Part shown: positions 23,336 through 62,039 of the stretch, piece by piece
Position numbering within the stretch: position 1 is the first letter of the stretch
Layout of the letters: each line of letters opens with the position of its first letter
Assembly (NCBI RefSeq): GCF_001307295.1
Contig: NZ_CP012700.1
Location: 2,359,001-2,423,000 of the forward strand
Source of the DNA: Sphingopyxis macrogoltabida
GTDB taxonomy: Bacteria > Pseudomonadota > Alphaproteobacteria > Sphingomonadales > Sphingomonadaceae
Length of the DNA stretch: 64,000 bases
Reading direction: 5' to 3'
Program-made: the position numbers and the translations under genes
Notes under the pieces: model-generated
The model's database searches: none
The model's input: only the letters and a program-made list of their open reading frames with translations
Told to the model about the DNA's origin: nothing

Positions 23336-25348
23336 TCAGCGCGGCGCGGCGTCGATGCCGAGCGCCTTGGCGATCCGTTCCCACGGCACCAGCTTGAAAT
23401 TCTGATGCTCGGGCGGCGACACGTTGCGTCCGTCCTGCGCGACCATCAGGCCGTTCGGGAACGCCGGTCCTGCCGCCATGCTGGTGACGTCGAGCCCGTC
23501 GGTTTCCGACACGCCATCGATGCCCGCCGCCATGTCGGCGCCGATCCGGAACGATCCGACATAGTCGTTGTTCCCCTCGCGCCGGAACACCGCATAGCTG
23601 TCGTTGCCCTGGCTCGACACGACCAGATAGCCCTTGCCGTCCGCCTGCGCGTACAGCCCGATGCCTTCCATATCGTCTTTGAGCGCAGGATTGTCGGTGA
23701 CCTTCGCCAGCATCGTCCGCGCCGGTCCGCCGCGCGGTTCGGCCCCTTCGCGCCAGACGCCGACATCTTCCTCGCCGGTATAGAGCATCCCCGTCTCGTC
23801 GTCGGCGACGCAGCCTTCGACCTGCGTTCCGAACGGCAGGTCGCGCATCAGCTTGGCGCGGACCTTGCCCGCCGGGGTCGCGACCAGTTCCCACTGGCGC
23901 ATCTTGCCGTCGCCCTGGTTGACGAAGACATAGGTCTTCTTCGACTTCGCGCTGCGATACATGCACAGGCCATAGGGATCGTCGAACCCGGTATCCTGCA
24001 GCCCGTCGGCGACATCGGTCAGCATCCGCGTCGCGGGGTCGATCGTATAGATGGAGATGCCCTTGGTCGTCCGGTTGCTCGCGGTCACCAGCGACACCTC
24101 GCGCCCGCCGAGGCGGAAACCGCTACGCAGGTCGACATTGTTCATCCGCCCGTCGGGCAGGAACTGGATCTGCTTGCCGTCGAGGCCATAGACATAGAGC
24201 CCCGACTGCTTCTGCGTCCCGATGATCACGCTCAGCGCCGGGTCGACGGGGTTGATCCAGATCGCCGGGTCGTCGGCCGCATCGCCGCCGGTCTCGACCG
24301 GGTCGGTCTCGACCGTCGCGAGCGCGAGCGGCATCGTTTCGGGCGCCGCCATCGCCGGCCGTTCGGCTATCCCCGCCGCGGCGAGCAGCGCGGACCAGCT
24401 CGCGATCTTGAAATTGGGTAGTTCGGGCGAATTGTCGTCGTCGGCGACGACGACCACCGGCCCCGCGACGGTGACGCTCCCCGCATCCTCGACCGCATCG
24501 TTCCCGGCCGCCAGCGCGACCGAGCCGAGATAGGCATAATCGTCGGCGGGGTCATAGATGTTCAGCCGGTTCGCCGAGGCGTCCGACACGAGCAGCCGGC
24601 CGTCGAGCGCAACAGCGACCCCCTTCGCTTCCTCGGTGATATGGCCGAGGCGGACGATATCGACGATCTCGGGCGTGATCTCGGCCTCGGGCTCGGCGGC
24701 AAAGCGCCACACGCCGACCGCTTCCTGCGAGAAATAGACCGAGCCGCGGTCGTCGGCGGCGCAATATTTGATTTCGGAGCCGAGCGACCAGCGCCGCGCG
24801 ATCCGTCCGTTCATCGTCCCCGACGCATCGGCCGACAGGCCCCATTGCTCGACCTCGCCCTTGTCGCCGGCGAGGAACAGATAGAGCGTCCCGTCGCGGT
24901 GGCTGCGCGAGAAACAGAGGCTCGCTATCGTCATCTCGGGCTTGATCCCGGCGAGCGTCAGCGGCGCCGGCACGCCGCCGGCCCCGACGCGGAAGAATTT
25001 CGGCGCATTATCCTTGCCGTCGAGCGCCGCGAGCAGCGGCGCGCCGCCCGCCGCGGCACCGGCGCGCAGGTCGAGCCCGCGGATATTGCCCACCTTGTGC
25101 GTTGCGACGCGCTGCCCTTTCAGGTCGAAGACGTCGACGCCCGCCGATTCGGCGCCGGCGAGAATCAGCGAACGCGACGGATCGCCCGGATCGGCGACGA
25201 CAACCGCGCCATCGGCACCCGATCCCTGCGTCGCTTGTGTCTCTGCCGATGCGGCGACGGTGCGGACCGGTGCGGCTTCCTGTGCGGCGGCGCCTGCGGC
25301 CGACACGCCCGCGAGCACGGCGGCGATTGCGAACAAGCTCGTTTTCAC
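23336..25348 (-). CDS. Exported beta-propeller phytase, two-domain
   Basis: 670 residues with an N-terminal signal peptide (cleavage near AAAQEA, residue ~23). The C-terminal half (~350-670) is a typical beta-propeller phytase: DDPAIWINP, IIGTQKQSGLYVYGLDGK, MNNVDLRSGF, DDPYGLCMY, VEGCVADDE, LYTGEEDVGVWRE and DMEGIGLY are all calcium- or phosphate-site segments. The N-terminal half (~40-340) is a second, diverged copy that lacks several of them, as in known dual-domain enzymes where the partial domain assists the active one. It removes phosphates from phytate outside the cytoplasm and needs Ca2+. It is divergent from an inositol monophosphatase gene. Confidence 0.9.
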   Translation of the reverse strand: MKTSLFAIAAVLAGVSAAGAAAQEAAPVRTVAASAETQATQGSGADGAVVVADPGDPSRSLILAGAESAGVDVFDLKGQRVATHKVGNIRGLDLRAGAAAGGAPLLAALDGKDNAPKFFRVGAGGVPAPLTLAGIKPEMTIASLCFSRSHRDGTLYLFLAGDKGEVEQWGLSADASGTMNGRIARRWSLGSEIKYCAADDRGSVYFSQEAVGVWRFAAEPEAEITPEIVDIVRLGHITEEAKGVAVALDGRLLVSDASANRLNIYDPADDYAYLGSVALAAGNDAVEDAGSVTVAGPVVVVADDDNSPELPNFKIASWSALLAAAGIAERPAMAAPETMPLALATVETDPVETGGDAADDPAIWINPVDPALSVIIGTQKQSGLYVYGLDGKQIQFLPDGRMNNVDLRSGFRLGGREVSLVTASNRTTKGISIYTIDPATRMLTDVADGLQDTGFDDPYGLCMYRSAKSKKTYVFVNQGDGKMRQWELVATPAGKVRAKLMRDLPFGTQVEGCVADDETGMLYTGEEDVGVWREGAEPRGGPARTMLAKVTDNPALKDDMEGIGLYAQADGKGYLVVSSQGNDSYAVFRREGNNDYVGSFRIGADMAAGIDGVSETDGLDVTSMAAGPAFPNGLMVAQDGRNVSPPEHQNFKLVPWERIAKALGIDAAPR

Positions 25349-25403
25349 TCAAACCCTCCCTCTGTTGTCGATTATTGCGCCCTCACCGCGTGACGGCGCA
25401 CTC

Positions 25404-25460
25404 CGAATGTCATTTCAGAATAATTTTTCTATCTTTATCTAAAAACAGAACGTATATTCA
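25404..25460. promoter_or_regulatory. Three NGAA-N6-TTCN sites between phytase and inositol monophosphatase
   Basis: CGAA-N6-TTCA at 25404-25417, AGAA-N6-TTCT at 25417-25430 and AGAA-N6-TTCA at 25447-25460. They lie in the A+T-rich divergent promoter and resemble the GGAA-N6-TTCC operator described for IolR of inositol genes in other bacteria. Confidence 0.5.
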
Positions 25461-25464
25461 TTCC

Positions 25465-26256
25465 ATGACGATGTCACCCCTTATTTCCGCCATGATCGCC
25501 GCCGCTCACGCCGCAGGCGAAGGACTGATCGCCGACCGCGAGCGCATTGCGACGCTCACGATCCACAGCAAGGCCGGCGCCGCCGACATGTTCACCGAGG
25601 CCGATCTTCGGGCCGAGGCCACCGTGCGCGAACACTTGCTGGCCCATGCTCCCGATTACGGCTTCCTCGGAGAAGAAGGCGGGCTGACGCCCGGCCGCGA
25701 CGCCGACCATGTGTGGGTGGTCGATCCGTTGGACGGTACAACCAACTTCCTGACAGGATCCCCACTCTTCGCGGTCAATATCGCGCTGGCGCGGCAGGGC
25801 GATGTCGTCGCCGGCGTCACCTATATTCCTGCGATGAATGAACTTTTCTGGGCCGAAACCGGAAACGGCGCTTGGCTCGGCGAAAAACGCATCGAAATTT
25901 CACCGCGCACGACGATCGAGGAATCGGTGCTCGGAGTCGGTATCCCGTTCGCAACCAAGCCCGACCACGACCAGTTTTACGCCGAGATGGAACGACTGAC
26001 CCCGCGCGTCACCGGCATCCGCCGCCTCGGCGCCGGCGCCATCGACATGGCATGGGTCGCCTGCGGCCGCCACGACGCCTATTGGGAACAGAGCGTCAGC
26101 GCGTGGGACATGGCCGCGGGGGTCGCGATTGTTCGCGAGGCGGGTGGGATCGTCACCGACACGCGCGGAGGCGGACTCGATCTGATGAACGGGACCGTGC
26201 TGGCGTCGACGCCGGCGATTCATGCGGAGTTGCTGACGGCGCTGGCGCGGGTTTAG
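25465..26256 (+). CDS. Inositol monophosphatase family protein
   Basis: 263 residues. The Mg-binding motifs of the family are present: GEEGG (~residue 71-75), WVVDPLDGTTNF (~88-99) and SAWDMAAGVAIVREAGG (~212-228). These cytoplasmic enzymes take the last phosphate from inositol phosphates, and some members act on histidinol phosphate or other sugars. Divergent promoter sharing with a phytase, and the iol genes downstream, support an inositol role. ATG 25465 is chosen; the frame is open far upstream, but only as a shadow of the phytase. Confidence 0.88.
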   Translation: MTMSPLISAMIAAAHAAGEGLIADRERIATLTIHSKAGAADMFTEADLRAEATVREHLLAHAPDYGFLGEEGGLTPGRDADHVWVVDPLDGTTNFLTGSPLFAVNIALARQGDVVAGVTYIPAMNELFWAETGNGAWLGEKRIEISPRTTIEESVLGVGIPFATKPDHDQFYAEMERLTPRVTGIRRLGAGAIDMAWVACGRHDAYWEQSVSAWDMAAGVAIVREAGGIVTDTRGGGLDLMNGTVLASTPAIHAELLTALARV

Positions 26257-26307
26257 TCCGGAAGAAAGACTGCTTTGGCGTGAAGCGGCCGTTCGTTTGC
26301 CCTCATT

Positions 26308-26380
26308 CGTCATCCCGGACTTGATCCGGGATCCATCGCTACGCTGAAGTCATGGACCCCGGATCAAGTCCGGGGTGACG
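26308..26380. repeat. Palindromic repeat, GGACTTGATCC type
   Basis: Same family as 21618-21690, here closing the gap between the convergent monophosphatase and dehydrogenase genes. It may act as a shared transcription end. Confidence 0.9.
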
Positions 26381-26422
26381 ATGATGGATGAGGCAGCTAC
26401 CAACCGTCGGCCGCCTTCCTCC

Positions 26423-27538
26423 TCAGGGCTTCGTCCATCCCCCCTCGCGGTGCGAGCGCCGGATCGCATCGGCGACCTTCTCGACCGCCAGCGCATCGGC
26501 AAAGCTCTTCGCCGCCGACGACAGCCCCGCCGCCGCTTCAACCGCCGCCTTGACCTCGATCGTCTTCAGGTCGTTATAGCCGATCTGATGCCCCGATGCG
26601 GGACAGAAGGCACCGTAATCGCCATGCTCGGGCCCGGCGCAGATCGTCGTGAAGCCGTTGGTCCGCCCCGGCCCCGACCGAAAGAGCTTCAGCTCGTTGA
26701 ACTGCTCCTGCGTGAAGCCGATCGATCCCTTCGTGCCGCTGATCTCGAACGCCAGCCCCATCTTGCGCCCGCTCGCGATCCAGCTCGCCGCCAGCGTCCC
26801 CGTCGCGCCATTCGCAAAGGCGACCACCGCATCCATCTGGTCGTCGACCGTCACCGCCCGGTCGTTCCCCTCAGCGTCGCGGCGCGTCGGGTAAGCGGTG
26901 TGGAGCCGCCCCGATACCGACGCGATATCGCCGACCAGATGCTGCGCCATCGCGATGATGTGGCTGCCGATGTCGGCGAGCGCGCCGCCCGCCTGCTCGG
27001 GCTCGCAGCGCCAGTTGAACGGCGCGTCGGCCGAGGCCATGAAATCCTCCGCGTGGATACCGCGAAACGCCGTCACCTCGCCGATCTCGCCGTCGGCGAC
27101 CAGTTCGCGCGCCAGCGCAATCATCGGGTTGTAGAGATAGGTGAAGCCGACCGCGGTCGGCCGTCCTGACGCCGCCGCGGCTGCGGTCATCGCCTCGGAC
27201 TCCGCGATCGTCGTCGCCAGCGGCTTTTCGCAATAGACCGCCTTCCCCGCTTCCAGCGCCGCGATCGCGATCGGCGCGTGCAGCAGGTTCGGCGTCGCCA
27301 CCGCCACCATGTCGATCGACGCATCGGCAATCGCCTCGCGCCAGTCGCCGCTCGCGTTCGGAATCCCGAGCGACGCCGCAGCGGCCGTTGCCGTGGACAA
27401 ATCGCGGTCGGCGAGCACCGTCACGCGCGGCGACAGCGGCAGGTCGAAGGTGCGATCCGCCGCCGCAAAGGCCAGCGCATGCGCCCGCCCCATGAAGCCG
27501 CTGCCGATCAGGGCGATGTTGAGCACCGGCCTCGTCAT
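26423..27538 (-). CDS. Gfo/Idh/MocA family dehydrogenase (probable inositol dehydrogenase)
   Basis: 371 residues. N-terminal NAD(P) Rossmann domain (IALIGSGFMGRAHALAF), the family lysine in CEKPLATT (~residue 105) and the C-terminal catalytic pair D and H in ALADIGSHIIAMAQ. The family oxidises sugars and cyclitols. As the last gene of the iol operon it may be a scyllo-inositol or second myo-inositol dehydrogenase; a sugar substrate cannot be excluded. The ATG at 27538 overlaps the stop of the 66-aa gene. The longer open frame to 27742 is a shadow of that gene. Confidence 0.85.
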   Translation of the reverse strand: MTRPVLNIALIGSGFMGRAHALAFAAADRTFDLPLSPRVTVLADRDLSTATAAAASLGIPNASGDWREAIADASIDMVAVATPNLLHAPIAIAALEAGKAVYCEKPLATTIAESEAMTAAAAASGRPTAVGFTYLYNPMIALARELVADGEIGEVTAFRGIHAEDFMASADAPFNWRCEPEQAGGALADIGSHIIAMAQHLVGDIASVSGRLHTAYPTRRDAEGNDRAVTVDDQMDAVVAFANGATGTLAASWIASGRKMGLAFEISGTKGSIGFTQEQFNELKLFRSGPGRTNGFTTICAGPEHGDYGAFCPASGHQIGYNDLKTIEVKAAVEAAAGLSSAAKSFADALAVEKVADAIRRSHREGGWTKP

Positions 27539-27735: not shown

Positions 27736-27738
27736 CGC

Positions 27739-29151
27739 TCACTCACCTCCATAATAGCTGCCGCCGCGCAGGGCGCGCTCGCGCCGTTCGAGTTCATCCT
27801 TGTCGATCGCCGCGCGCCAGCTCTGCTTGCCGTTGACCAGATCGCTCGCGCGCAGCACGACCGGCTTGCCCGACGCCGGCGCGCCGATCACGTCGCGGAT
27901 GCTGAGTTCGACGCGCGGTTCGGGATCGAAATGGAATTCGAGCAGCCCGAAATTGGCGCTGCGCACGAAGGGTGCACGCAGTCGCACTTCGGGATGCTGG
28001 TCGACGAACTTTGGCGCCAGATATTGCGCCAGCCCCGAACTGACGAGGTCATAGAAATCATAGCCGCCCTTGTCGGACCAGGGCACGCAATTGACCTCGC
28101 CCTGATGGACGTCGCCCGAAATGCCGAGACAGCCGGCGATCTTCTCGTCGCGGATGAAGTCGAGGATCTCGTTCCGCTCGTGGAGATAATTGGCCCAGCT
28201 ATCGCCATCCTTTTCCGCGAGGGTCCAGCCGGTGCCCGACGCCAGCACCTTGAACGCCGCCTTCGACGCCTTGAGCTCGCGCTTCAGCCACGCCTTCTGC
28301 CCTGCGCCGAGCATCGTCTTCTCGGGGCCGTCGGGGTGGTCGGGCGGGTCGCGGTGATAGCGCCCGTCGAGCATGAAGATGTCGACAGGGCCAAAGCTGT
28401 GGCGAAAGAAAATCCCCGGCGTATCGGCGGTCCCGCCGGGCGGGTTCGCCCACCAGCGCCGGAACAGCCGGTGCGTCATCTCCTTCACCGCATTGTAACG
28501 GTCGGAGTTGTTATAGCCGAAATCATGGTCGTCCCAGATCGCGAGTTGCGGCACCGACCGCAGCAGCGGCACCAGCGCCGAAACATTGCGCTGGCGCGAA
28601 TAGAGCGCCGAGTAAGCGCTCTCACTGTCGCTGTCGGCATAGATATTGTCGCCCAGCCACAGGAACAGGTCGGGCTCCATCGCCGCGACCGCCTCGAACA
28701 CCGGCTGTTCGGGGTAAAGCTGCACCCGCGCGCACGACCCGAAGGCGATGCGGATCGGCCGCGGCTTGTCGGGCGCGGTGCGGGTGCGGAACGGCAGCGG
28801 CTGGTGCCGGTCGTCGATCCCGTCGGTCTTGACCCGGTAATGATATTCGGTGTCGGGCCGGAGCCCGGTCACCTCGATCGCGGTGCAGAGGTCGTTCTCC
28901 TGCATCGCCTCGACGACCGCTGTCGTCTTCGCATCGGCAAAGTCGCGCCGCGTCGCATATTCGACCGCGACCCCGAACGCCCCGCTGGCGCGCGACCAGA
29001 CGGTGAAGCTGCCCGGGCTCGTCGCCCCGATCATCGGCCCGTCGAGCAGCCGCGGATAGCCGATCGCGGCGGCATAGAGCCGGCGCGGCAGCGCCGCGAG
29101 CAAGGCGAGCGTTCCCGTTCCCCAAAGGAGCTTGCGTCGTTCCATCATCAT
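27739..29151 (-). CDS. PhoD-like phosphatase, Tat-type signal
   Basis: 470 residues. The N terminus MERRKLLWGTGTLALLAAL has twin arginines and a short hydrophobic stretch, so export by Tat is likely, as for PhoD. A PhoD N-terminal beta domain (~35-130) is followed by the metallophosphatase core: GSCARVQL, LWLGDNIYAD, IWDDHDFGYNNSD and SGDVHQGE carry the metal ligands. PhoD enzymes use Ca/Fe to hydrolyse phosphomono- or diesters in the periplasm. It sits 21 bp downstream of the OPA antiporter within the iol operon, so an inositol phosphate substrate is proposed. Confidence 0.85.
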   Translation of the reverse strand: MMMERRKLLWGTGTLALLAALPRRLYAAAIGYPRLLDGPMIGATSPGSFTVWSRASGAFGVAVEYATRRDFADAKTTAVVEAMQENDLCTAIEVTGLRPDTEYHYRVKTDGIDDRHQPLPFRTRTAPDKPRPIRIAFGSCARVQLYPEQPVFEAVAAMEPDLFLWLGDNIYADSDSESAYSALYSRQRNVSALVPLLRSVPQLAIWDDHDFGYNNSDRYNAVKEMTHRLFRRWWANPPGGTADTPGIFFRHSFGPVDIFMLDGRYHRDPPDHPDGPEKTMLGAGQKAWLKRELKASKAAFKVLASGTGWTLAEKDGDSWANYLHERNEILDFIRDEKIAGCLGISGDVHQGEVNCVPWSDKGGYDFYDLVSSGLAQYLAPKFVDQHPEVRLRAPFVRSANFGLLEFHFDPEPRVELSIRDVIGAPASGKPVVLRASDLVNGKQSWRAAIDKDELERRERALRGGSYYGGE

Positions 29152-29172
29152 CCTATTCCCAGTCGTGCTGCC

Positions 29173-30507
29173 TCAATCGCGCAGCTTCGTGTTCCACAAT
29201 GTCGTCGCGAGCAGGGTCGCGACCACCGAGCAGCCGATCCAGAACCAGATCACCGGCTCGAAATCATAGATGCGCGTATTTCCCGTGACATGCATGTTGG
29301 CGTCGATCAGCGCCCCCGACACCTGTTCCTGCATCGCCGCGCCGAGATAGCTGAATACCCCGACCATCCCGAGCGCCGCGCCCGCGACGCGCTTCGGACA
29401 GATGTCGATCGCGAACAGCCCGCCGAGCGAGGTGACGAGCCCGGTCATGCCGAGCCCGAACAGGACCGCGCCGAGCAGCACCCAGCCATGCCCCTCGGGA
29501 CCATAAAAGAAGATCAGCAGGCCGACGATCTCGACCACCCCGAACAGCAGGTTGGCCGGCGGCCGGCGCGCGCCGAAGAATTTGTCGGATATGAAACCGA
29601 AAGCGAGCGCCCCGGCGACCCCCGCAAATGTGCTCGCGGTCAGCATCACTCCTGCCTCGCCCAGCGAAAAGCCGCGTGATTCCTGCAGATACAGGATGCC
29701 CCAACTGTTGATCGCATAGCGCGTCACATAATTGGCGGCGCTCGCCAGCGCGAGCACCCACACCGCCGGAATCGCAAGGATCGAAAGCTGCGTAGCGAAC
29801 ACGCCGCGTTCGGGCATCCCTTCGGCGGGCGGCGCATAATGGTCGTTCCGCCAGTCGGCGACCGTCGGCAGACCCAGCGTCCGCGGCCGGTCGGCCATCG
29901 CATAAAAGGCTGCAACCGCGGCGATCAGCGTCGCAATCCCCGGTCCCCAGAAACCCCAGTGCCAGCCGCCCACCGCGACCAGCGCGGTGACCAGCGCAAA
30001 GGTCAGCCCCTCGCCGATCGAATGCGCGGTCGACCAGATGCCGTAATAACGCCCGCGCTCGCGGTTCGAAAACCAGCTCGCCAGCGCGACGACGCACGAC
30101 GGCGCGCCATAGCTCTGGAACCAGCCGTTCAATCCCCAGATCATCACCGTGACCCAGAAGACGGTCGAAAAGCCCATCGCGATATTGCACAGCGCCGACA
30201 GCACCAGTCCCGCCGCGAACAGCCGCTTCACATTGCTGTGATCGGCGACGAAGCCGTTGACCAGCTTGCCCGCGGCATAGGTATAGAAGAGCGCCGACCC
30301 GATCATGCCGAGCTCGAGCGGGGTGAAGATGCCTTGGTCGATTAGCGGCTTCTTGACGATGTTGATCGCCAGCCGGCACATATAGCTGATCGCGTAAGCG
30401 AGCGTGATCGCGGCGATGATCCGCATCCGGTAATGACGGAACCGGCCGTCGATATCGCTGCCCGTATCGACCGGAACCTCGGGCCCAGCCGCGAAAAACT
30501 TCAGCAT
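29173..30507 (-). CDS. OPA-family MFS organophosphate:phosphate antiporter (GlpT/UhpT-like)
   Basis: 444 residues with about twelve membrane segments. The OPA signature residues are in place: R45 in SYMCRLAIN, H162 in STAHSIGEG and R263 in NYVTRYAINSW, matching the phosphate-binding arginines and central histidine of GlpT in position and surroundings. OPA proteins exchange cytoplasmic phosphate for an organophosphate. There is no ordinary inositol permease or ABC transporter in the window; instead this gene occupies the transporter place in the iol operon, 26 bp after iolB. Import of an inositol phosphate is therefore a specific hypothesis. Glycerol-3-phosphate or sugar phosphates are alternatives. 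Confidence 0.82.
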   Translation of the reverse strand: MLKFFAAGPEVPVDTGSDIDGRFRHYRMRIIAAITLAYAISYMCRLAINIVKKPLIDQGIFTPLELGMIGSALFYTYAAGKLVNGFVADHSNVKRLFAAGLVLSALCNIAMGFSTVFWVTVMIWGLNGWFQSYGAPSCVVALASWFSNRERGRYYGIWSTAHSIGEGLTFALVTALVAVGGWHWGFWGPGIATLIAAVAAFYAMADRPRTLGLPTVADWRNDHYAPPAEGMPERGVFATQLSILAIPAVWVLALASAANYVTRYAINSWGILYLQESRGFSLGEAGVMLTASTFAGVAGALAFGFISDKFFGARRPPANLLFGVVEIVGLLIFFYGPEGHGWVLLGAVLFGLGMTGLVTSLGGLFAIDICPKRVAGAALGMVGVFSYLGAAMQEQVSGALIDANMHVTGNTRIYDFEPVIWFWIGCSVVATLLATTLWNTKLRD

Positions 30508-30533
30508 CGATCCTCTCCCCTCGACCTGTTTTT

Positions 30534-31325
30534 CTATTGGCGCACGATCCAGTCGTGCGCGGGATCGTTACGGAACACCCAGTTGCGCCGGGGCCCCGCC
30601 ATCACGTTCAGATAATAAAGGTCATAGCCGTGCGGCGCCCCGACCGGATGATAGCCACGCGGCACCATCACGACGTCGCCGTCCTCGACCGCCATCGTCT
30701 CGTCGATGTCGCGTTCGTCGGTATAGACGCGCTGAAAGGCAAAGCCCTGCGGCGGCGACAGCCGGTGGTAATAGGTCTCCTCGAGGAAGGTTTCCTCGGG
30801 GAACGCGTCGCGATCATGCTTGTGCGGCGGATAGCTCGACCAGTGGCCGCCGGGCGTGATCACCTCGACGACGAGCAGGCTTTCGGCCTCGTCGGCGTCG
30901 GACAGGATGTTGCGCACATGCCGCGTGTTGGTGCCCTTGCCGCGCACCTCGACCGCCTCGGACCGGATCAGCCGCACTGCCCCCGCGCCGCTCCCCGGTG
31001 CGGTGCAGATCGCGATTTCAGCATCCGATCCCGCCTCGATCGTATAACGATGCCCCGCGGGGACATAGACCGAGGTCGCGGCACCGTCGAACACCGTCGC
31101 GCGCCCGCCGATCCCCTCGAACCGCTCGCCGCCCGCGTCGACCGACACCGTGCCCGTCAGCACGACGAGGCACGCCTCGCGCCCGTCTTCGACGTGGTTG
31201 TAGCGCGCCCCTGCCGCCAGCCTGACGACGCGGAAGCCGACATATTTCCACCCCGCGCTTTCGGGCGTGATGTCGAGCAGCGTACCATCGTCGTCGGGCG
31301 CATGCGGGCGGACGAGCAGCGACAT
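30534..31325 (-). CDS. iolB: 5-deoxy-glucuronate isomerase
   Basis: 263 residues of the IolB double-cupin family; SYPPHKHDRD and the downstream glutamate/histidine residues in PEETFLEETYYHRL are the metal site. It isomerises 5-deoxy-glucuronate to 2-deoxy-5-keto-gluconate in myo-inositol breakdown. Its ATG (31325) shares a base with the iolE stop (TGATG), showing coupling. Confidence 0.95.
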   Translation of the reverse strand: MSLLVRPHAPDDDGTLLDITPESAGWKYVGFRVVRLAAGARYNHVEDGREACLVVLTGTVSVDAGGERFEGIGGRATVFDGAATSVYVPAGHRYTIEAGSDAEIAICTAPGSGAGAVRLIRSEAVEVRGKGTNTRHVRNILSDADEAESLLVVEVITPGGHWSSYPPHKHDRDAFPEETFLEETYYHRLSPPQGFAFQRVYTDERDIDETMAVEDGDVVMVPRGYHPVGAPHGYDLYYLNVMAGPRRNWVFRNDPAHDWIVRQ

Positions 31326-36002: not shown

Positions 36003-36074
36003 CCTTCCCTGATCTGTAACGCATATTCCACTTTTAGAATCTTTGCAACATATGTTTCAGGATGGCGTGAAAAT

Positions 36075-36088
36075 GGAATGCCCGTTCA
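36075..36088. promoter_or_regulatory. GGAA-N6-TTCA site before iolC, overlapping the rpiR stop
   Basis: One mismatch from the palindrome GGAA-N6-TTCC. A 10-bp palindrome AACATATGTT (36047-36056) lies between it and iolC. The spot is suited to control the whole iolC-to-dehydrogenase operon. Confidence 0.5.
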
Positions 36089-36989: not shown

Positions 36990-37090
36990 GGAATATCTGT
37001 TCAAAACTTGTAACGCAACTATCGCCCTGCCGTATTTTCCACGCTATAGAATATATGTTCCAGTCATTAACAACATGGAACAAGGTTTCA
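36990..37090. promoter_or_regulatory. Three (G/A)GAA-N6-TTC(C/A) sites in the rpiR-iolG divergent promoter
   Basis: GGAA-N6-TTCA at 36990-37003, AGAA-N6-TTCC at 37048-37061 and GGAA-N6-TTCA at 37077-37090. All lie in the A+T-rich 141-bp space between the two starts and would let the RpiR protein control itself and iolG. Confidence 0.6.
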
Positions 37091-37105: not shown

Positions 37106-38089
37106 ATGCACGACATTGCCCTGATCGGCGCCGGCAGGATCGGCAAAATCCACGCGGCTAACCTTGCCGCCAACCCGCGCCTGCGGCTGGCGCGCGTCGT
37201 CGACCCCTTCCCCGACGCCGCCTCAGCGGTCGCTGCCCAATATGACGCGCGCGTCTCGACGATCGACGAAGCGCTCGCCGATCCCGCGATCGCCGGCGTC
37301 GTCGTCGCCAGCTCGACCGACACCCACCTGCCCTACAGCCTCGCCGCTGCCGAGGCGGGCAAAGCGGTCTTCTGCGAAAAGCCGCTCGATCAGGACCTCG
37401 GCCGCGCCCGCGAATCGGCGGCGCGCTTCGCCGCGCTCGACGCACGCCTGTTCCTCGCCTTCAACCGCCGCTTCGACCCCAATTTCGCGGCGCTGCAGGC
37501 GCGCCTCACCGGCGGCGCGGTCGGCAATCTCGAAACGCTGCACATCATCAGCCACGATCCCGCGCCGCCGCCGGTCGATTACGTCAAGGTGTCGGGCGGC
37601 ATCTTCAAGGACATGGTGATCCACGATTTCGACATGGCGCGCTGGCTGCTCGGCGAAGAGGTCAGCGAGGTTTTCGCCAGCGCCTCGGTGCTCGTCGATC
37701 CGGCGATCGGCGAAGCGGGCGACGCCGACACCGCCAAGACGATCCTGCGCACCGCGTCGGGCCGCCTGTGCGTCATCTCGTCGAGCCGCCGCAGCGGTTA
37801 TGGCTACGACCAGCGGATCGAGGCCTTCGGATCGGCGGGGATGATTCGCGCCCAGAACCAGCTCGAAACGACGGTCGAGACCTGGGGCGAGAATGGCGCC
37901 GCCGCCGACCGCTTCCAGAATTTCTTCCTCGACCGCTATGCCGTCGCCTACGCCCGCGAGGCCGAACATTTCGCCGACATATTGGACGGCGCCGCCCCGC
38001 TGGTCGACGTCCGCGACGGCGTCGCCGCCCTCGCCCTCGCCGAAGCCGCCGCCCAATCGGCGAAAACCGGTGAGCGCGTGCTGCTCTAA
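37106..38089 (+). CDS. iolG: myo-Inositol 2-dehydrogenase
   Basis: 327 residues of the Gfo/Idh/MocA family, standard IolG length. Rossmann motif LIGAGRIGKIHAANL, lysine K92 in CEKPLDQ, and the catalytic pair D167 and H171 in GGIFKDMVIHDFDMARW. It oxidises myo-inositol at C2 to inosose with NAD+. ATG 37106 is preceded by AGAGAGG; the open frame upstream is a shadow of rpiR. It stands alone, divergent from rpiR, with its own operators. Confidence 0.93.
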   Translation: MHDIALIGAGRIGKIHAANLAANPRLRLARVVDPFPDAASAVAAQYDARVSTIDEALADPAIAGVVVASSTDTHLPYSLAAAEAGKAVFCEKPLDQDLGRARESAARFAALDARLFLAFNRRFDPNFAALQARLTGGAVGNLETLHIISHDPAPPPVDYVKVSGGIFKDMVIHDFDMARWLLGEEVSEVFASASVLVDPAIGEAGDADTAKTILRTASGRLCVISSSRRSGYGYDQRIEAFGSAGMIRAQNQLETTVETWGENGAAADRFQNFFLDRYAVAYAREAEHFADILDGAAPLVDVRDGVAALALAEAAAQSAKTGERVLL

Positions 38090-38411: not shown

Positions 38412-40940
38412 TCAGAATTTGAACTGCACCCCCGTCTTCACCGAATAGCCATAGCGTTCGACCTCGTCGATCCGCGACGGGATGCCCTGGAAGACGCGGT
38501 ACGGCTCGTCGTTGAGGTTCGATCCTTCGAGGAAGATCGTGACATGCTTCACGATGTCGTAGCCGATCCGCGCATCCCACTGGTTGAAGGCGCCGACATA
38601 CAGGTCGGTGTCGCGATCCTCGCCGGGTTCGAGCAGGTAGGCCGAGCGATAGGTGTAGGCGATCCGCGCCGACAGCCCGCCCTTTTCGTATGACAGGAAC
38701 GCCGATGCCACCCGGTTCGACTGGCTGGCGAGCGGCAGCCGCTCGTCGCCGCGGCCGGGGATGCCCTTGGCGCGCGATTTGACGAAGGTGATGCTGCCCC
38801 CGACGCTGAACCCGTCGAGCGGCGACGGCAGGAAGCTGAGCTCGGTCTGCGCGTTGATCTCGACGCCCTTGACGAAGGCGCTGTCGGCGTTGACCGGCAT
38901 CGTCACCTGCGCATCGATCAGGTCCTGCCCGGCAAAGGTGCCGCTCTGCACCGTCGTCGCCGAATAGATCGGGTTCTCGATCGTCTTGTAGAAGCCGGCG
39001 ACGCTGACGATGCCCTTGCGGCCGATATAGAATTCGCCGGCAAGGTCATAGTTGGCCGAGGTCAGCGGCCGCAGGCCCGGATTGCCCTGTTCGACCTCGT
39101 TGTCGCCGGTGTTGACGATCGTCGTCGGCGCGAGCTGCTCATAGTTCGGCCGCCCGATCGCCCGCGTCACCGCGGCGCGGAAGACCAGCGACTGCGTCGC
39201 GTCCCAGCGCAGGTTCAGCCCCGGGAACCAGTCGGTGTAGCTTTGCGACCCGAAGCTGTCGTAATCCTTGTCCAGATCGTCGACGGTCGAGGAATCGAGC
39301 ACCGCCTTCGCGGCATAATTGCTCTTCGTCTTCTCCATGCGGACGCCCGGGATCGCAGTGATCTGACCGATCTTCAGCGTCGCCATCGCATAGGCGGCAA
39401 AAATCTTCTCGCGGATCAGGTAATCGCCGGCCAGGCTGTCGCCGACGGTGCCTTCCTCGTCGAGTTCGAAATCGTCGAAATTGGAATCGAAGAAATCGTC
39501 GGCGCTCGGGCGGCTGATGACCACGCCGAACGGATAACGGCCCTTGAAGATGCTGCCGATCGACCCGCCCTCGACCTGATCGAGCGTGAAGTCGCCGTCA
39601 TAGCCGTCATAGACCGACGCGTTCGCATCATTCGTCTTTCGGCGGCTGGTATATTTGGCGCCGACCTTGATCGAACTGTCGTCGCCGATCGCGATCGGGG
39701 TGCGGAAGTCGGCGCGGAACTGGTACAGATCTTCGCGTGCCCGGCGGCTTTCGTAGCTCGTCTCGTCGAATTCATAAATCGAGGGGTCGAACGCGCTGGC
39801 GTCGGGGCGGAAGATCGGGATGCCATCCGACAGGTCGTATGACCCCGACACGCCCTCGCCCTCGAACGAGATTTCGTCGCGATGCGGGTCGCGCTTGTTG
39901 GCGCGGGTATAGCTGCCCTCGACGCGCAGCCAGCTCGGGCCGAGGTCGAACTCGCCGCCCAGCGACCCGGTCAGCGTATCCGAATCCTCCTGCCGCGAGC
40001 GCAGCGCGCGAGCGACATCGGCTTCGGCGAAATCGCCGCCGGCCGCGGTCTGGTTGGTGATCTCGTCCTCGTCGAGCTCGATCGTGAAGCCCGGCCGCGA
40101 TTCCTTGTCCTTGTACTTCGAATAGAGGAAGCGGGCATAGGTCTTCACCGCATCGGTCGGTCGCCAGTCGAAATTGGCGACCGCGCCATAGCGTTGGCGC
40201 CGCGTGTGATAATCGCGGATCGTCTGTTCGAGCGGGATGAACTGGCCGTTCACTTCTTCCCAGCTGCCGCCCGACTGGACGTTCTGCGCCTCGAACTCGC
40301 GGTTCGAATAGTTGACCGCCAGCACGACGCCGAACTGCCGGTCGGGACCAAAGCGCGTCCCGATCGACGCGTCGAGTTCATAGGGATGCTTGCCGTTGAG
40401 GTCGTATTTGCCATAGGCGCCGCGCAGGCTGCCGAAGGTGCCCGGACGGTCGAAGGCCGACACCGTTTCGATATTCGCGGCGCCGGCGATCGCGTTGGCG
40501 TCCATGTCGGGGGTCAGCGTCTTCGACACGGTGATCGCGCCGATCAGCGCCGACGGGATGTCGTCGAGCTTCACCTGCCGCGAGTCGGGTTCGGGGGCGG
40601 CGGCGGTCTGGCCGTTCAGCGTCACGTTGAGCAGGTCGGGCGAGACGCCGCGCACGGTCAGGTAACGCCCCTCGCCCTGATCGTTGGCGACGCTGAGGCC
40701 CGGCAGGCGGCGCAGCGTTTCGGCGACATTCTGGTCGGGCAGCCGGCCGACGTCGTCGGCGCGCACTTCGTCGACCTGCGTGTCGGTGTTGCGCTTCGTC
40801 TCCAGCGCCGCGCGATCGGCGGCGCGGCGGCCGCTGACGACGATCGTATCGTCGTCGCCTGCCGTATCCTGTGCCCAGGCGCCCGCAACCGGAACCGCCA
40901 GACATGTCGTGAGCAAAAGCGCCCGTCCGAACCGTGTCAT
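38412..40940 (-). CDS. TonB-dependent outer-membrane receptor
   Basis: 842 residues with a signal peptide (1-24, ending GAWAQ), a TonB box region near DDTIVVSG, a plug domain (~45-165, GRLPDQNVAETLRRLPG and YLTVRGVSPDLLNVTLNG) and a 22-strand barrel ending in VQFKF. The plug is of the large Caulobacter/Xanthomonas receptor type that commonly serves carbohydrates. It probably imports phytate, inositol phosphates or a related ligand, since it lies between iolG and an AppA-type phytase. The ligand is inference. A weak AGAA-N6-TTGC site is at 41027-41040. Confidence 0.9.
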   Translation of the reverse strand: MTRFGRALLLTTCLAVPVAGAWAQDTAGDDDTIVVSGRRAADRAALETKRNTDTQVDEVRADDVGRLPDQNVAETLRRLPGLSVANDQGEGRYLTVRGVSPDLLNVTLNGQTAAAPEPDSRQVKLDDIPSALIGAITVSKTLTPDMDANAIAGAANIETVSAFDRPGTFGSLRGAYGKYDLNGKHPYELDASIGTRFGPDRQFGVVLAVNYSNREFEAQNVQSGGSWEEVNGQFIPLEQTIRDYHTRRQRYGAVANFDWRPTDAVKTYARFLYSKYKDKESRPGFTIELDEDEITNQTAAGGDFAEADVARALRSRQEDSDTLTGSLGGEFDLGPSWLRVEGSYTRANKRDPHRDEISFEGEGVSGSYDLSDGIPIFRPDASAFDPSIYEFDETSYESRRAREDLYQFRADFRTPIAIGDDSSIKVGAKYTSRRKTNDANASVYDGYDGDFTLDQVEGGSIGSIFKGRYPFGVVISRPSADDFFDSNFDDFELDEEGTVGDSLAGDYLIREKIFAAYAMATLKIGQITAIPGVRMEKTKSNYAAKAVLDSSTVDDLDKDYDSFGSQSYTDWFPGLNLRWDATQSLVFRAAVTRAIGRPNYEQLAPTTIVNTGDNEVEQGNPGLRPLTSANYDLAGEFYIGRKGIVSVAGFYKTIENPIYSATTVQSGTFAGQDLIDAQVTMPVNADSAFVKGVEINAQTELSFLPSPLDGFSVGGSITFVKSRAKGIPGRGDERLPLASQSNRVASAFLSYEKGGLSARIAYTYRSAYLLEPGEDRDTDLYVGAFNQWDARIGYDIVKHVTIFLEGSNLNDEPYRVFQGIPSRIDEVERYGYSVKTGVQFKF

Positions 40941-41110: not shown

Positions 41111-42448
41111 TCAGGCGGATAGCGTCCACGATACGCGGACTTCAAGTCCGCCGAGCGATGACCGGGAGAGCGTCAGCTCGCCGCGCGTCGCCTCGGCGAG
41201 CTCGCGTGCGATGGCAAGGCCGAGGCCATGCCCCTCCTCCCCCGAGTCGAGCCGTGCGCCGCGCAGGATCGCTTCGCCGCGTTGCGCGCTGTCGAGCCCC
41301 GGGCCGTCGTCGCCGACCACCAGCGCCAGCGCGCCGCCATCGCCCTCGACCGCGACATGGACGAGGCGGCGGGCGTGGCGCGCCGCATTTTCGAGCAGCG
41401 GGCCGAGCAGTTCGGCGGCGTCGTCGCTGGCCAGCGGCAGCGTCGCATCCTCGGCGCAGGCGAGCGAAAAGGCGACGCGCTCGCCCGCCTCGGTCTGCTC
41501 GATCACCGCGACGATGCGCTCGATCAGCGGCAACGCGACGGTGCTGCGCCCCTCGTGGACCAGGCTGATCCGCGTCCGCGCCAGTTCGCCGTCGATCGCG
41601 GCGCGCATCGCGGCGATCGACGAATCGAGCCCGTCGGCGATTTCTGCGGCGCCACCCTCGCGCATCCGCGCGCTCTGCGCCGCGAGTGCCGCGAGCGGCG
41701 TTTTCAGCCCGTGCGCCAGATCGGCGGCGCGCCGCCGCGCCCGCACCAGATCGGCCTCGCGCGCATCGGCGAGCGCATCGATCGACGTGGTGAGCGGCGC
41801 GAGTTCGCGCGGATAGGCACCGCCGAGGCGCGCCGAGGCGTCGCGGCTCAATTGCTCGATCTCCTGCCGCACCCGGCCCAGCGGCCGCAGCCCCAGCGAA
41901 ACCTGCGCCCAGGCGGCGAGCGCCAGCACCGCCCACAGCAGCACCATGAACAGCGCCATTTCACGCCCGAACTCGCGCTGCGCCGGCGCCAGTTTGGCAA
42001 GATCGTAACCGAGCTGAACGATCACCGGCGGTTCCTGTGGCTGCAGCCGGATCGCGCGTTCCATCAGCAGCAACCTTTGCCCGAACGGGCCGTCGGCGCG
42101 GCGCAGGCGCCACGTATCGGCGGGCGCCGTCGCGGCGCGCGGCAGGCGGCTGTCCCACAAGGACACCGAGCGGATCGTCCCGGCGCCGGTCGACGCCTGC
42201 CAGTAGAGCCCACCCGCAGGCACCGCGAAGCGCGGATCGGCGGGCTCCGATCCCGCAACCGGCACCCCGCCCGACAGGGTGAGGTCGGCGAGCAGCGGCC
42301 GCACCTGCACCAGCAGCTCGTCCTCGACGCGCCGCTCGACATGGCCGTTGAACAGCCAGGTCATCGCGAACCAGGCGACGACGAGCGCAACCGCGATCGC
42401 CACCCCGGCCCCCGCGATCAGCCGCAGCCGGAGCGAACCGCCGGTCAC
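41111..42448 (-). CDS. Two-component sensor histidine kinase
   Basis: 445 residues from a GTG start that overlaps the response regulator stop. Membrane segments at ~11-33 and ~163-184 frame a periplasmic sensor of about 130 residues; then HAMP-like, H-box with H246 (DLAHGLKTPLAAL), N-box LLENAARHA and ATP-lid motifs DDGPGL and GHGLGLAI. Overall similar to PhoQ/QseC-type kinases. It autophosphorylates and passes phosphate to the regulator upstream in the operon. The signal is unknown. The longer open frame to 42862 is a shadow. Confidence 0.9.
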   Translation of the reverse strand: MTGGSLRLRLIAGAGVAIAVALVVAWFAMTWLFNGHVERRVEDELLVQVRPLLADLTLSGGVPVAGSEPADPRFAVPAGGLYWQASTGAGTIRSVSLWDSRLPRAATAPADTWRLRRADGPFGQRLLLMERAIRLQPQEPPVIVQLGYDLAKLAPAQREFGREMALFMVLLWAVLALAAWAQVSLGLRPLGRVRQEIEQLSRDASARLGGAYPRELAPLTTSIDALADAREADLVRARRRAADLAHGLKTPLAALAAQSARMREGGAAEIADGLDSSIAAMRAAIDGELARTRISLVHEGRSTVALPLIERIVAVIEQTEAGERVAFSLACAEDATLPLASDDAAELLGPLLENAARHARRLVHVAVEGDGGALALVVGDDGPGLDSAQRGEAILRGARLDSGEEGHGLGLAIARELAEATRGELTLSRSSLGGLEVRVSWTLSA

Positions 42449-43110
42449 GCGGCGGCGGCCGGCACCAGATAGCCGAAGCCGCGCCGCGTCTCGATCGTCC
42501 CCGCCCCCAGCTTGCGGCGCAGCCGCGCAATCAGCGCCTCGATCGCATTGGTGTTTTCGGTGTCGGCGTCGCCATAAAGATGGTCGGACAATTCGGTCGC
42601 CGGCACCGCGCGCCCGGCATGATGCGCCAGATAGTCGAGCAGCCGGTATTCGAGCGGCGACAGCTTGATCAGCGCGCCGTCGAGCGTCGCGGTCATCCGG
42701 TGCGTGTCGATCCGCACCGGCCCCGCCTGCAGCATCGGGCTCGACCGCCCGGCGGCGCGGCGGATCAGCCCGCGCAGCCGCGCGACCAGTTCCTCCATCG
42801 CCCATGGCTTCGCCATATAATCGTCGGCGCCGACCTCGATCCCGGCGACCTTGTCGGTCCATTCGCCGCGCGCCGACAGGATCAGAACGGGAAAATTCCG
42901 CCCCGCCTCGCGCCAGCGCTTGATCACCGACAGTCCGTCGAGCCGCGGCAGGCCAAGGTCGACGACCGCGACGTCATATTCCTCGACATCGCCGTTGAAC
43001 CACGCCTGCTGCCCGTCGCCCGCCAGATCGACGACGAAGCCGGCGGCGGTCATCCCGCGCACCAGTTCGCACGCGACCGCCGGATCGTCCTCGACCACCA
43101 ATGCACGCAT
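42445..43110 (-). CDS. OmpR-family response regulator
   Basis: 221 residues: receiver domain with phospho-acceptor D51 (VAVVDLGLPRLDG), acidic pocket VVEDD and lysine in MAKPW, then a winged-helix DNA-binding domain ending RRGFGYLVP. ATG 43110 shares a base with the PepSY gene stop (TGATG); a TTG at 43113 also fits the frame. The partner is the kinase encoded just downstream. Lying between the receptor and the phytase it may control one of them. Confidence 0.93.
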   Translation of the reverse strand: MRALVVEDDPAVACELVRGMTAAGFVVDLAGDGQQAWFNGDVEEYDVAVVDLGLPRLDGLSVIKRWREAGRNFPVLILSARGEWTDKVAGIEVGADDYMAKPWAMEELVARLRGLIRRAAGRSSPMLQAGPVRIDTHRMTATLDGALIKLSPLEYRLLDYLAHHAGRAVPATELSDHLYGDADTENTNAIEALIARLRRKLGAGTIETRRGFGYLVPAAAA

Positions 43111-43430
43111 CAATCATCCTCGATCTTGATTACCCGGCCGGTCTTGGCGTCGATTTCGACCTCGCGCACCCTGCCGCTTCCGGTGAGGATTTTCACCTCA
43201 TATTTGAAACCGAATTTTTCGCGCTCGAGCTCGACCTTCAGCACGTCGCCCGGGACGCGCCCGGTCGCGATCGCAAGGACGCGGGCGATCGGCAGGATCT
43301 CCCCGCGCGCGAGCGCCGCGCTGGCGGCTTGCTGGTCGGCCCGGTCGTCCTTGTCGCCATAGGCGAACGAGGCGGAAGCGGGAATGGCGAAGGCGGCAAC
43401 TGCGGCCGCGATGAGGAGGGTCTTCTTCAT
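43110..43430 (-). CDS. Small exported PepSY-domain protein
   Basis: 106 residues: signal peptide (1-23, ending ASASFAYG), a short charged segment, and a PepSY domain (~45-105, GRVPGDVLKVELEREKFGFKYEVKI and TGRVIKIEDD). PepSY proteins of this size are periplasmic and often precede a two-component pair, where they may modulate the kinase or a peptidase. First gene of the three-gene operon. Confidence 0.88.
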   Translation of the reverse strand: MKKTLLIAAAVAAFAIPASASFAYGDKDDRADQQAASAALARGEILPIARVLAIATGRVPGDVLKVELEREKFGFKYEVKILTGSGRVREVEIDAKTGRVIKIEDD

Positions 43431-43501
43431 GCTGCCCTTTTGCCACACCGGCCCTGACATCGCGCTGACATGCAATTCAGGCCTAAAGCATTCCCTTCCA
43501 T

Positions 43502-43574
43502 CGTCATCCCCGACTTGATCCGGGATCCAGACAACGGACGTCGCAATGGATCCCGGATCAAGTCCGGGATGACG
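43502..43574. repeat. Palindromic repeat, GACTTGATCC type
   Basis: Same family as 21618-21690, lying in the 238-bp divergent space between the PepSY gene and the AppA-type phytase. Confidence 0.9.
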
Positions 43575-43611
43575 AAGCAGGAGAAAGCTGCTCACCAAAC
43601 CAATCATTGAT

Positions 43612-43625
43612 GAAACATATTTTCT
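43612..43625. promoter_or_regulatory. GAAA-N6-TTCT site before the AppA-type phytase
   Basis: One mismatch from NGAA-N6-TTCN in an A+T-rich stretch 44 bp before the start codon. Weak on its own; noted because similar sites occur at the other inositol promoters. Confidence 0.3.
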
Positions 43626-43668
43626 GTTATACGACATACCGATATATTTATTCTAATAGGAGAGCGAA

Positions 43669-44904
43669 GTGAAGCGGATATTCCTCCTGTCGACCGCGCT
43701 GCTGGCCGCCTGCGCGGCGCCTGCCCCCGGCACCGGGACCGCATCCCCCGCCGCCGCGCCGGGTCCGCTCAAGCTCGAAAAGGTCGTGATGCTGATGCGC
43801 CACGGCATCCGCCCGCCGACCAAGGCCTCTGTCGTTCCCGCCGGCTATTCGGACGAGCGCTGGCCCGACTGGCCGGTCGACTATGGCCTGCTCACCCCGC
43901 GCGGCGGCGCCGGGGTGAAGCTGCTCGGCGAAAGCGACCGCCTCTGGTTCGGCGACCGCGGGCTGTTTCCGGGCGGCTGCCCCGCCGCGGGGACCATCGT
44001 GCTCAAGGCCAGCTACAAACAGCGAACGATCGACACCGCGCGCAACTGGGCCGCTGGCTTCATGCCCGGCTGCGCCGTCGATGTGTCGCACCCGGCGGGC
44101 GCCGACGACGATGCGATCTTCCACGGCCTCGACGGTGCGCCGCCGTCGTTCGACGGCAAGCGCGCCTATGACGCCTCGCTCGCCGAAGCGCCCGAGGGCG
44201 GGCTCGCCGCCGACACCGAACGCCATCGCGGCGAACTCACCCTGCTGGCAAAAGTGCTGAACTGCGCCCTTCCCGCCTGCCCTCTCGTCGCCGAGCCGAG
44301 CCGGCTGATCGCGCAGCCGCACGACCGCCCCGACCTCGAAGGCCCGCTCGACGTCGGCTCGACCGCCAGCCAGACCTTGCTCCTCGAATATCTCGAAGGC
44401 ATGCCGATGGAGCAGGTCGGCTGGGGCCGCGTCAGCCGCGCCGAGATCGAACAGTTGCTGCGCTTCCACCCGCTGAAGTTCCGCTATGCCAACCGCCCCG
44501 GCTATATCGCCGCCGCGGCCGCTGCACCGATCGTCGGCGAAATCGTCGCGGCGCTCGGCGATACCAGCCCCGCGCGGCTGACCCTGCTCGCCGGCCACGA
44601 CACCAATGTCGCCGACCTCGGCGGCTTCTTCGACCTCCACTGGCAGGTGCCGAGCTATCCCGCCGACGAGGTACCGCCGGGCAGCGCGCTCGGCTTCGAG
44701 CTGGTGAGCGATGCCAAGGGCGAACGCTATGTCCGCGCCTTCTATCGCGGCCAGACGATGGACCAGCTGCGCAATCTCGAACCGCTCGGCCGCGGCGACA
44801 CCTTCTTCCGCCGCTACCTCCCGATCCCCGGCTGCGGCAATTCGGCCGAAGCGACCGCCTGCACCTGGACCGCCTTCACCCGCCTCGCCGCACCGCGAGG
44901 ATAA
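43669..44904 (+). CDS. Histidine acid phosphatase, AppA-type phytase, lipoprotein
   Basis: 411 residues. The N-terminal LSTALLAAC ends in a lipobox with C15, so it is probably a membrane-anchored lipoprotein. The histidine acid phosphatase motif is RHGIRPP (residues 44-50, nucleophile H45) and the proton donor is D of GHDTNVADL (~309-311). The following region, ending PPGSALGFELV and later paired cysteines (PGCGN, CTWTAF), matches the AppA/glucose-1-phosphatase branch. It removes phosphates from phytate at acid pH. GTG 43669 has AGGAG upstream. It complements the Ca-dependent phytase at 23336. Confidence 0.88.
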   Translation: MKRIFLLSTALLAACAAPAPGTGTASPAAAPGPLKLEKVVMLMRHGIRPPTKASVVPAGYSDERWPDWPVDYGLLTPRGGAGVKLLGESDRLWFGDRGLFPGGCPAAGTIVLKASYKQRTIDTARNWAAGFMPGCAVDVSHPAGADDDAIFHGLDGAPPSFDGKRAYDASLAEAPEGGLAADTERHRGELTLLAKVLNCALPACPLVAEPSRLIAQPHDRPDLEGPLDVGSTASQTLLLEYLEGMPMEQVGWGRVSRAEIEQLLRFHPLKFRYANRPGYIAAAAAAPIVGEIVAALGDTSPARLTLLAGHDTNVADLGGFFDLHWQVPSYPADEVPPGSALGFELVSDAKGERYVRAFYRGQTMDQLRNLEPLGRGDTFFRRYLPIPGCGNSAEATACTWTAFTRLAAPRG

Positions 44905-62037: not shown

Positions 62038-62039
62038 AA

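Follow-up and report, generated by a model that had tools for sequence, protein, structure and literature searches.

The stretch of the Sphingopyxis macrogoltabida genome analysed here (64,000 nucleotides, hereafter the window; G000:C1:2359001-2423000 of a 5.1 Mb genome) carries, in an operon of inositol catabolic (iol) genes, a transporter gene of the OPA family at 29173-30507 on the minus strand. We propose, with a probability of roughly three in four, that its product belongs to an OPA subfamily that exchanges inositol monophosphate for phosphate across the inner membrane, dephosphorylation then taking place inside the cell. Because its clade lies in phytate and inositol gene clusters, keeps the phosphate-binding residues and usually has beside it the gene for a type of enzyme active on inositol monophosphate, the protein probably imports a phosphorylated inositol. 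The original prediction for this DNA had envisaged such import followed by internal dephosphorylation; gene linkage, a separate branch on the tree and conserved residues all favour it, with the substrate deduced from these comparisons and a few relatives that do not fit. Support also came from observations that the prediction had not foreseen, namely that the partner enzyme is either an inositol monophosphatase (IMPase) or a kinase, that two inositol pathways are involved, and that three loci without the OPA gene have no IMPase.

The transporter and its branch of the OPA family

The protein has a single Pfam match, PF07690 (154.4 bits), and its top solved relatives by sequence are Escherichia coli GlpT (1pw4, 1.2e-50) and SLC37A4. 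It belongs to the OPA family, like UhpC, UhpT, PgtP and SLC37A4, but falls far below the NCBIfam cut-offs: the best-scoring models were UhpC (254.5 bits against a cut-off of 564), a PgtP-subfamily model (249.9 bits) and GlpT (224.7 against 632.55), with UhpT (153.9 against 497) and PgtP (151.3 against 750) behind them, and no UhpAB-type neighbours were seen in the window locus. Homologues at E 1e-20 or better numbered 3675 among 8000 candidates scored, and several of the best 120 are labelled UhpC-like sensor in the source databases. The window protein shares 95% identity with a protein of Sphingopyxis panaciterrae; no second OPA-like protein was seen in its own genome, the next match having 28% identity and 62.9 bits. 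A viral or mobile origin of the gene was rejected, since no OPA relative was encoded in the 16 pattern stretches of viral contigs.

With GlpT the protein shares the fold family, the residues R45, K80, H165 and R269, and the tyrosines Y38, Y42, Y76 and Y270 (GlpT numbering); the first four align with R45, K81, H162 and R263 of the window protein. Conservation of R45, H162 and R263 had been noted in the original prediction, and across an alignment of 82 rows (the 80 relatives' loci described below, the window and one second copy) each is indeed found in all 82, the tyrosines Y38, Y42, Y77 and Y264 being invariant as well and K81 being Lys in 80 rows and Arg in 2. In one further homologue, P0088, which lies outside these rows, H162 is replaced by Arg. 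Among GlpT mutants, R45K loses both binding and transport, and K80A, R269K and K46L bind more weakly (PMC4598623).

A maximum-likelihood tree was built from 63 rows: 57 from the clade (representing 55 of the 80 loci, plus the window and a second copy) and six more distant or control rows. The OPA proteins of these loci form a separate clade with support of 99/98, far from E. coli GlpT and UhpC; whether it would branch apart from GlpT had been a question of the original prediction. This tree omits UhpT and L111, which form long branches; a quick tree that included both gave the clade a Shimodaira-Hasegawa-like approximate likelihood ratio test (SH-aLRT) support of 94. The sister of the clade comprises L107, L109 and L110, where the OPA gene stands beside galactonate genes or beside a binding protein and a sensor kinase. 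In L109 (5372-10695) and L110 (5313-10618) the OPA gene (43% identity) is divergent to genes for a solute-binding protein and a sensor kinase, an arrangement that we take to be PgtBCP-like, and in L109 a pyruvate kinase gene follows.

Partner enzymes and inositol pathways beside the transporter

Gene neighbourhoods were examined for the best 80 (54-95% identity) of 265 relatives from a one-genome-per-species collection, including as much as 10 kb of flanking sequence to either side of the OPA gene (some contigs end sooner). Neighbours were counted with profiles built from the recurrent neighbours of the same loci, at score limits that we set ourselves. Within 10 kb of the OPA gene, 48 of the 80 loci encode an IMPase and 23 a kinase of the TM0415 type; none encodes both, and 71 encode one or the other. 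The partner gene lies directly downstream of the OPA gene in all 23 kinase loci and in 39 of the 48 IMPase loci. Genes iolC/D/E were present in 53 loci, iolM/N/O in 11 and either set in 64, linking the clade to two different inositol pathways (iolCDE and the Thermotoga-type iolMNO). A beta-propeller or AppA-like phytase is encoded near the OPA gene in 35 loci, and 75 of the 80 have at least one of IMPase, kinase, iol genes and phytase. In several phyla, then, iol genes and phytases accompany the OPA gene, which answers the question that the original prediction had set for a conservation search. No IMPase or kinase was found nearby at nine loci (L018, L020, L022, L023, L052, L056, L087, L090 and L093), and at two of these the contig stops soon past the OPA gene, at a distance of 2.8 kb (L018) and 0.8 kb (L056). 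In L022 and L023 a molybdopterin enzyme, a tryptophan halogenase and an esterase are among the neighbours. L069 and L070 are apparently near copies of each other, and L086 and L089 carry tandem OPA copies ahead of a kinase of the pyrophosphate (PPi) type.

A whole-genome phytase search covered 34 genomes, 30 from the 45 loci that lack a nearby phytase and four from loci with an AppA-like gene close by. PF02333 was found in 26 of the 34, in 22 of these as two adjacent stretches, and an AppA-like match in 22, always below the model cut-off. In L074 and L071 the distance between the OPA gene and a two-domain phytase is about 12-14 kb, which places the phytase just past the examined stretch.

The IMPase-family protein of the window, one of six PF00459 proteins in the genome, contains DPLDGTTNF and WDMAAG, which we take to be IMPase motifs; it has no visible signal peptide and is presumed to be cytosolic. 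In a quick tree with several long branches, 27 of the 28 linked IMPases tested formed one clade (SH-aLRT 96) apart from E. coli SuhB and from four of the window genome's five paralogues (four tested), with L177 nearest. Only L079 (Pleomorphomonas) departed from this: its IMPase belongs to another lineage, and an AppA-like phytase is encoded next to its OPA gene. Phytases tend to stop at inositol 2-monophosphate (Ins(2)P), on which ordinary IMPases are poor, so an unusual specificity is predicted for the linked IMPase clade.

The kinases that replace the IMPase at other loci match TM0415 (1vk4) at 1.4e-43 and 2.9e-35 in the two cases tested. Their PPi-binding signature, K171, R229 and R232 (RXGRGD), is kept in all 21 readable rows of 22, with position F221 being Phe in 18 of the 21 and Trp in 3, and M266 being Met in 14 of the 21. 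At the acceptor site all 22 rows have Leu78, Leu89, Ser116 and Met76. The first three correspond to the substitutions N78L, S89L and L116S carried by homologue No. 49; with PPi, but with neither ATP nor ADP, that enzyme formed inositol monophosphates distinct from Ins(1)P, and the authors of the study suspected that its true acceptor is another compound (PMC5931981). The iolMNO assignment is firm by NCBIfam cut-offs in L058 (IolM 540.8 bits, cut-off 450; IolN 307, cut-off 245; IolO 345.3, cut-off 300), and at other loci these genes were called by our own profiles. Mapped on the tree, the partner enzyme has changed at least twice and the catabolic pathway at least once while the OPA protein was retained.

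Unbiased surveys covered 247 genomes of the order and 397 of the phylum. A close OPA protein (over 600 bits in the order survey) was present in 8 of the 247 genomes and iolD in 12; all eight close-OPA genomes have iolD, at 1.7-10.1 kb from the OPA gene, as against 4 of the 239 genomes without a close OPA protein (Fisher p 1.6e-12, kinship ignored). Fifteen further genomes had OPA matches of 109-404 bits, none of them close, and the genome at the upper end, G049 (404 bits, 45%), has no iolD. In the phylum survey a close OPA protein occurred in 4 of the 397 genomes and iolD in 99, each of the four having iolD 1.7-3.4 kb away (4/4; Fisher p 0.004 for this survey alone, relatedness ignored), and three genomes with OPA proteins at 39-43% identity lacked iolD.

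These surveys also supplied 66 OPA-negative iolD loci, 62 from the 95 such genomes in the phylum survey (roughly one for each genus) and 4 from the order survey, 7 of the 66 stretches being shortened by contig ends. The IMPase profile matched near iolD at all nine OPA-positive survey loci (426-479 bits; at least five of these, L103, L104, L106, L112 and L113, are also among the 80) and at 4 of the 66 OPA-negative ones (114-152 bits); because these same loci had gone into the profiles, the criterion for IMPases elsewhere was E 1e-5 and not a high score. The TM0415-type kinase profile matched at none of the 66 OPA-negative loci. The two-domain phytase, the TonB receptor and the iol genes are retained at three OPA-less loci, L097-L099, and no IMPase was found at any of them. 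L098 and L099 instead have a sodium:solute symporter (SSF) and a farther MFS protein (Sugar_tr in L098); in L097 an amino-acid permease was the sole transporter among the neighbours scanned. L098 and L099 come closest to a swap experiment made by nature, and they are two cases only.

Operator-like sites and layout of the locus

The iol promoters of the window and its IMPase/phytase promoter share an operator-like sequence. Sequence matching located four palindromes: GAATATACGTTC between the IMPase and phytase genes (25448-25459, minus strand), immediately ahead of the IMPase start and oriented towards the phytase gene; one before iolC (36017-36028, minus strand); and two in the rpiR/iolG-like intergenic region (36991-37002 and 37049-37060, both on the plus strand). 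The consensus GAATATNYGTTM, with four copies in the window against 0.03 expected, was read off these same sites, so this statistic is post hoc and the relatives provide the sole test. In the 74 loci outside Sphingopyxis we counted 24 copies against 0.25 expected (first-order resampling, 20 rounds), 22 of which lie around iolG, rpiR and iolC (some inside over-long open reading frame (ORF) calls), the remaining two being 104 bases before the OPA gene in L034 and 82 bases before the TonB receptor gene in L048. The IMPase/phytase site recurs exactly in L016, L019, L100 and L101 and not in L014, L015 or L017. The OPA-negative iolD loci have 8 copies against 1.0 expected (at most 5 in any of 20 rounds), and the site may therefore be a mark of the iol regulon as a whole. 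We infer that a regulator binds at these sites, whose consensus is similar to the Caulobacter iol operator GGAA-N6-TTCC (PMC2597717). The exact Caulobacter operator was discarded as a candidate, its one match in the window, at 12851, lying outside the locus and not exceeding chance.

On the minus strand the genes run in the order iolC-aldolase fusion, iolD, iolE, iolB, OPA gene, phoD-like gene and dehydrogenase gene, with overlapping or short junctions, and the four Iol proteins of this one operon all exceed their NCBIfam cut-offs: IolC kinase fused to a DUF2090 aldolase (34047-36002; NF047869, 728.6 bits, cut-off 600), IolD (32215-34050; TIGR04377, 937.9, cut-off 715), IolE (31325-32218; TIGR04379, 357.4, cut-off 290) and IolB (30534-31325; TIGR04378, 352.7, cut-off 205). 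A gap of 26 bases separates iolB from the OPA gene; in other Sphingopyxis loci (L015-L019) an iolA-type aldehyde dehydrogenase gene stands between the two, and the window has only the gap (30508-30533) in its place and no iolA match across the 64 kb. The minus-strand series continues with the PhoD-like phosphatase (27739-29151; PF09423, 102.9 bits; twin-arginine-like N-terminus by eye) and a GFO/IDH/MocA dehydrogenase (26423-27538) that scores below the cut-offs for IolG (109.2 bits, cut-off 355) and levoglucosan dehydrogenase. An RpiR-family regulator (36086-36964, minus strand; SIS and HTH_6) and an IolG-like GFO/IDH/MocA dehydrogenase (37106-38089, plus strand; PF01408 and PF22725, from the Pfam scan only) lie on the other side of iolC.

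Phytases, PhoD, IMPase, TonB receptor and iol genes had been placed within 22 kb of one another, and all were recovered there, with three amendments. Both phytases are present, the beta-propeller enzyme (23336-25348, minus strand; PF02333, 417 bits in two stretches; Sec-type N-terminus by eye) having two domains; the AppA-like histidine acid phosphatase (43669-44904, plus strand; PF00328 (His_Phos_2), 70.5 bits; lipoprotein-like N-terminus), although its RHGIRPP motif is visible, falls below the AppA model cut-off (NF007552, 209.9 bits against 585). The IMPase-family gene (25465-26256, plus strand, with 25465 the likely start; PF00459, 225.8 bits) is part of the locus but stands outside the iol operon, divergent from the minus-strand phytase gene at 25.4 kb. 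The GlpT/UhpT-type protein had also been named as the only inner-membrane transporter of the iol operon, and no other protein among those scanned between 23 and 45 kb matched an inner-membrane transporter family.

The region from 38.4 to 44.9 kb holds, besides the AppA-like gene, the TonB-dependent receptor (38412-40940, minus strand; TIGR01782, 578.1 bits, cut-off 310) and, adjoining it at 41111-43637, minus-strand ORFs for a histidine kinase (41111-42862, true start probably about 42450; HATPase_c), an OmpR-type response regulator (42445-43113) and a PepSY protein (43110-43637), the last two identified by family scan. This set could sense phytate or its metal ions; the histidine kinase cluster recurs in 30 of 81 loci and the response-regulator cluster in 24. 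Farther along the window, beyond a leuA-type gene (59099-60763), the GC content of 60764-64000 is 0.55-0.58 as against about 0.66 before it, and one of five scanned ORFs there has a weak HEPN_Apea match (62596-63099) and the rest none; this is possibly a foreign stretch. Neither the Rfam scan (at the gathering threshold) nor the tRNA scan of the window gave a match.

Alternative readings and significance

In the mechanism that we favour, the phytases and the PhoD-like phosphatase, which to judge from N-termini read by eye would act outside the cytoplasm, strip phytate to inositol monophosphate; the antiporter would import this product by the GlpT mechanism, with R45 and R263 gripping the phosphate, and the cytosolic IMPase, or in other lineages the TM0415-type kinase run backwards, would release inositol. 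The phosphate set free would be the counter-ion of the next antiport round, and IolG with IolEDBC or IolMNO would then degrade the inositol. A bolder and distinctly tentative proposal, on the doubtful side in our estimation, is that the whole clade consists of dedicated inositol-monophosphate:phosphate antiporters, from Proteobacteria to Acidobacteria, KSB1 and Neomarinimicrobiota, with the kinase working in reverse in the kinase branches and a specialised IMPase elsewhere. The kinase branches would convert inositol phosphate and phosphate to inositol and PPi, saving the ester energy as pyrophosphate, and in the IMPase branches the specialised enzyme, whose substrate would probably be Ins(2)P as the end product of phytase action, would return phosphate to the antiporter.

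Several observations weigh against inositol monophosphate as the substrate. GlpT K46 is replaced by Leu in all 82 clade rows and GlpT E299 by Thr in 80, so the site differs from that of known antiporters; the clade departs from GlpT as well in its typical K52-K53, N84, E166 and E326 and in its inositol gene context. The window IMPase reaches no NCBIfam equivalog cut-off (168.9 bits for inositol-1-monophosphatase, cut-off 332; 172.8 for HisN, cut-off 275), and the role proposed for the kinase would have to be opposite to its assayed direction. PF02333 phytases occur in 99 of the 247 genomes of the order, and in 11 of the 12 genomes with iolD a two-domain one lies within about 13 kb of that gene, three of the 11 having no OPA gene; phytase linkage tracks iolD as much as OPA. 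Among 14 relatives' genomes checked for iolD, 6 lacked it. Those of L020, L022, L023 and L052 encode the OPA protein with no iolD, PF02333 or AppA-like match, that of L090 has an AppA-like match with neither iolD nor PF02333, and in that of L056 iolD was not found; at L087 the OPA and iol genes stand without an IMPase or kinase gene inside 10 kb, and its genome gave no phytase match. For misfits of the L020/L022/L023/L052 type, either the assemblies are incomplete or these branches have changed substrate. Finally, at L111 (9164-11378) a 39% identical OPA gene abuts an IMPase-family gene near GlpA/GlpB-like FAD genes in a genome without iolD, so that adjacency of OPA and IMPase genes alone is no proof of inositol.

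The L111 arrangement, together with the binding protein and sensor kinase of the sister loci L109 and L110 and the four relatives' genomes without iolD or phytase, would suit a different organophosphate met along with phytate, such as glycerol-3-phosphate, phosphoglycerate, glycerophosphoinositol or an inositol polyphosphate. We consider this unlikely, given that the GlpT, PgtP, UhpT and UhpC cut-offs are all missed and that the clade is linked with two separate inositol pathways; moreover, no glycerophosphodiesterase family matched among the annotated recurrent neighbour clusters, where a calcineurin-like phosphatase does recur. Quite unlikely, in our judgement, is the reuse of the OPA fold as a permease for free myo-inositol, with periplasmic phosphatases completing dephosphorylation outside. 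Such a permease would accord with OPA being the sole transporter found in the iol operon and with the OPA and iol genes of L087 in the absence of a nearby IMPase; the three PF00083 matches of the genome at E 1e-25 or better are weak (at most 107.7 bits, each best stretch under half the model), so no clear IolT is seen (SSF and ABC importers were not searched genome-wide). It leaves unaccommodated, however, the conservation of both phosphate-binding arginines, of the lysine (80 of 82 rows) and of the substrate-site tyrosines, as well as the three OPA-less phytase-iol loci, which have no IMPase and in two cases an SSF symporter. Import of free inositol is made less likely by the partner enzymes, which act on inositol monophosphate and accompany the OPA gene rather than the iol genes.

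The database names of relatives, and the histidine kinases and response regulators that recur nearby, could suggest that the protein is a UhpC-like receptor sensing inositol phosphate for a two-component system. This we regard as very improbable: the UhpC model score is less than half its cut-off, the response regulator is OmpR-type and stands beside a PepSY protein and the TonB receptor, and the window's iol locus would be left without a visible inner-membrane importer. Model cut-off and neighbours led us to reject a UhpC-like sensor, and the histidine kinase was rejected as a UhpB.

Transport of inositol monophosphate by an OPA protein would have partial parallels. The Thermotoga inositol cluster has an ABC transporter (InoEFGK), in contrast to the OPA protein beside the kinase here, and InoE reportedly binds inositol phosphate. 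That cluster otherwise resembles our kinase loci in bringing IolG-M-N-O genes and a TM0415-type PPi-dependent kinase together (PMC5931981, PMC3750489). The Caulobacter ABC transporter IbpA-IatA-IatP likewise serves an iol operon with the operator mentioned above, but it imports free inositol and is encoded about 500 kb from the iol genes; the same paper mentions uptake of inositol phosphate as a possibility for another, ABC-type transporter (PMC2597717). A phytase gene beside a TonB receptor gene has been described as well, and the consulted portion of that paper does not propose an inner-membrane carrier for inositol phosphates (PMC3400609). Our searches of the CC0, CC BY and CC BY-SA literature of PubMed Central turned up no description of an OPA transporter for inositol phosphates. 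What would be new is the substrate class, inositol phosphates, within a known family, a proposal that comparison supports well.

Phytate is a major organic phosphorus store of soils and seeds, and the bacterial uptake of its breakdown products is poorly known. In the portions consulted, a survey and a review speak of free-inositol transporters, the survey having excluded transporters without homology to characterised inositol facilitators (PMC9430895) and the review naming IolT as the bacterial inositol transporter (PMC12482443). Gene order, mutually exclusive partners and an operator-like site now single out a concrete candidate protein for the transport of inositol monophosphate. If this role is true, database labels such as UhpC-like sensor would be corrected, and the TM0415-type PPi-dependent kinases would gain a physiological role.

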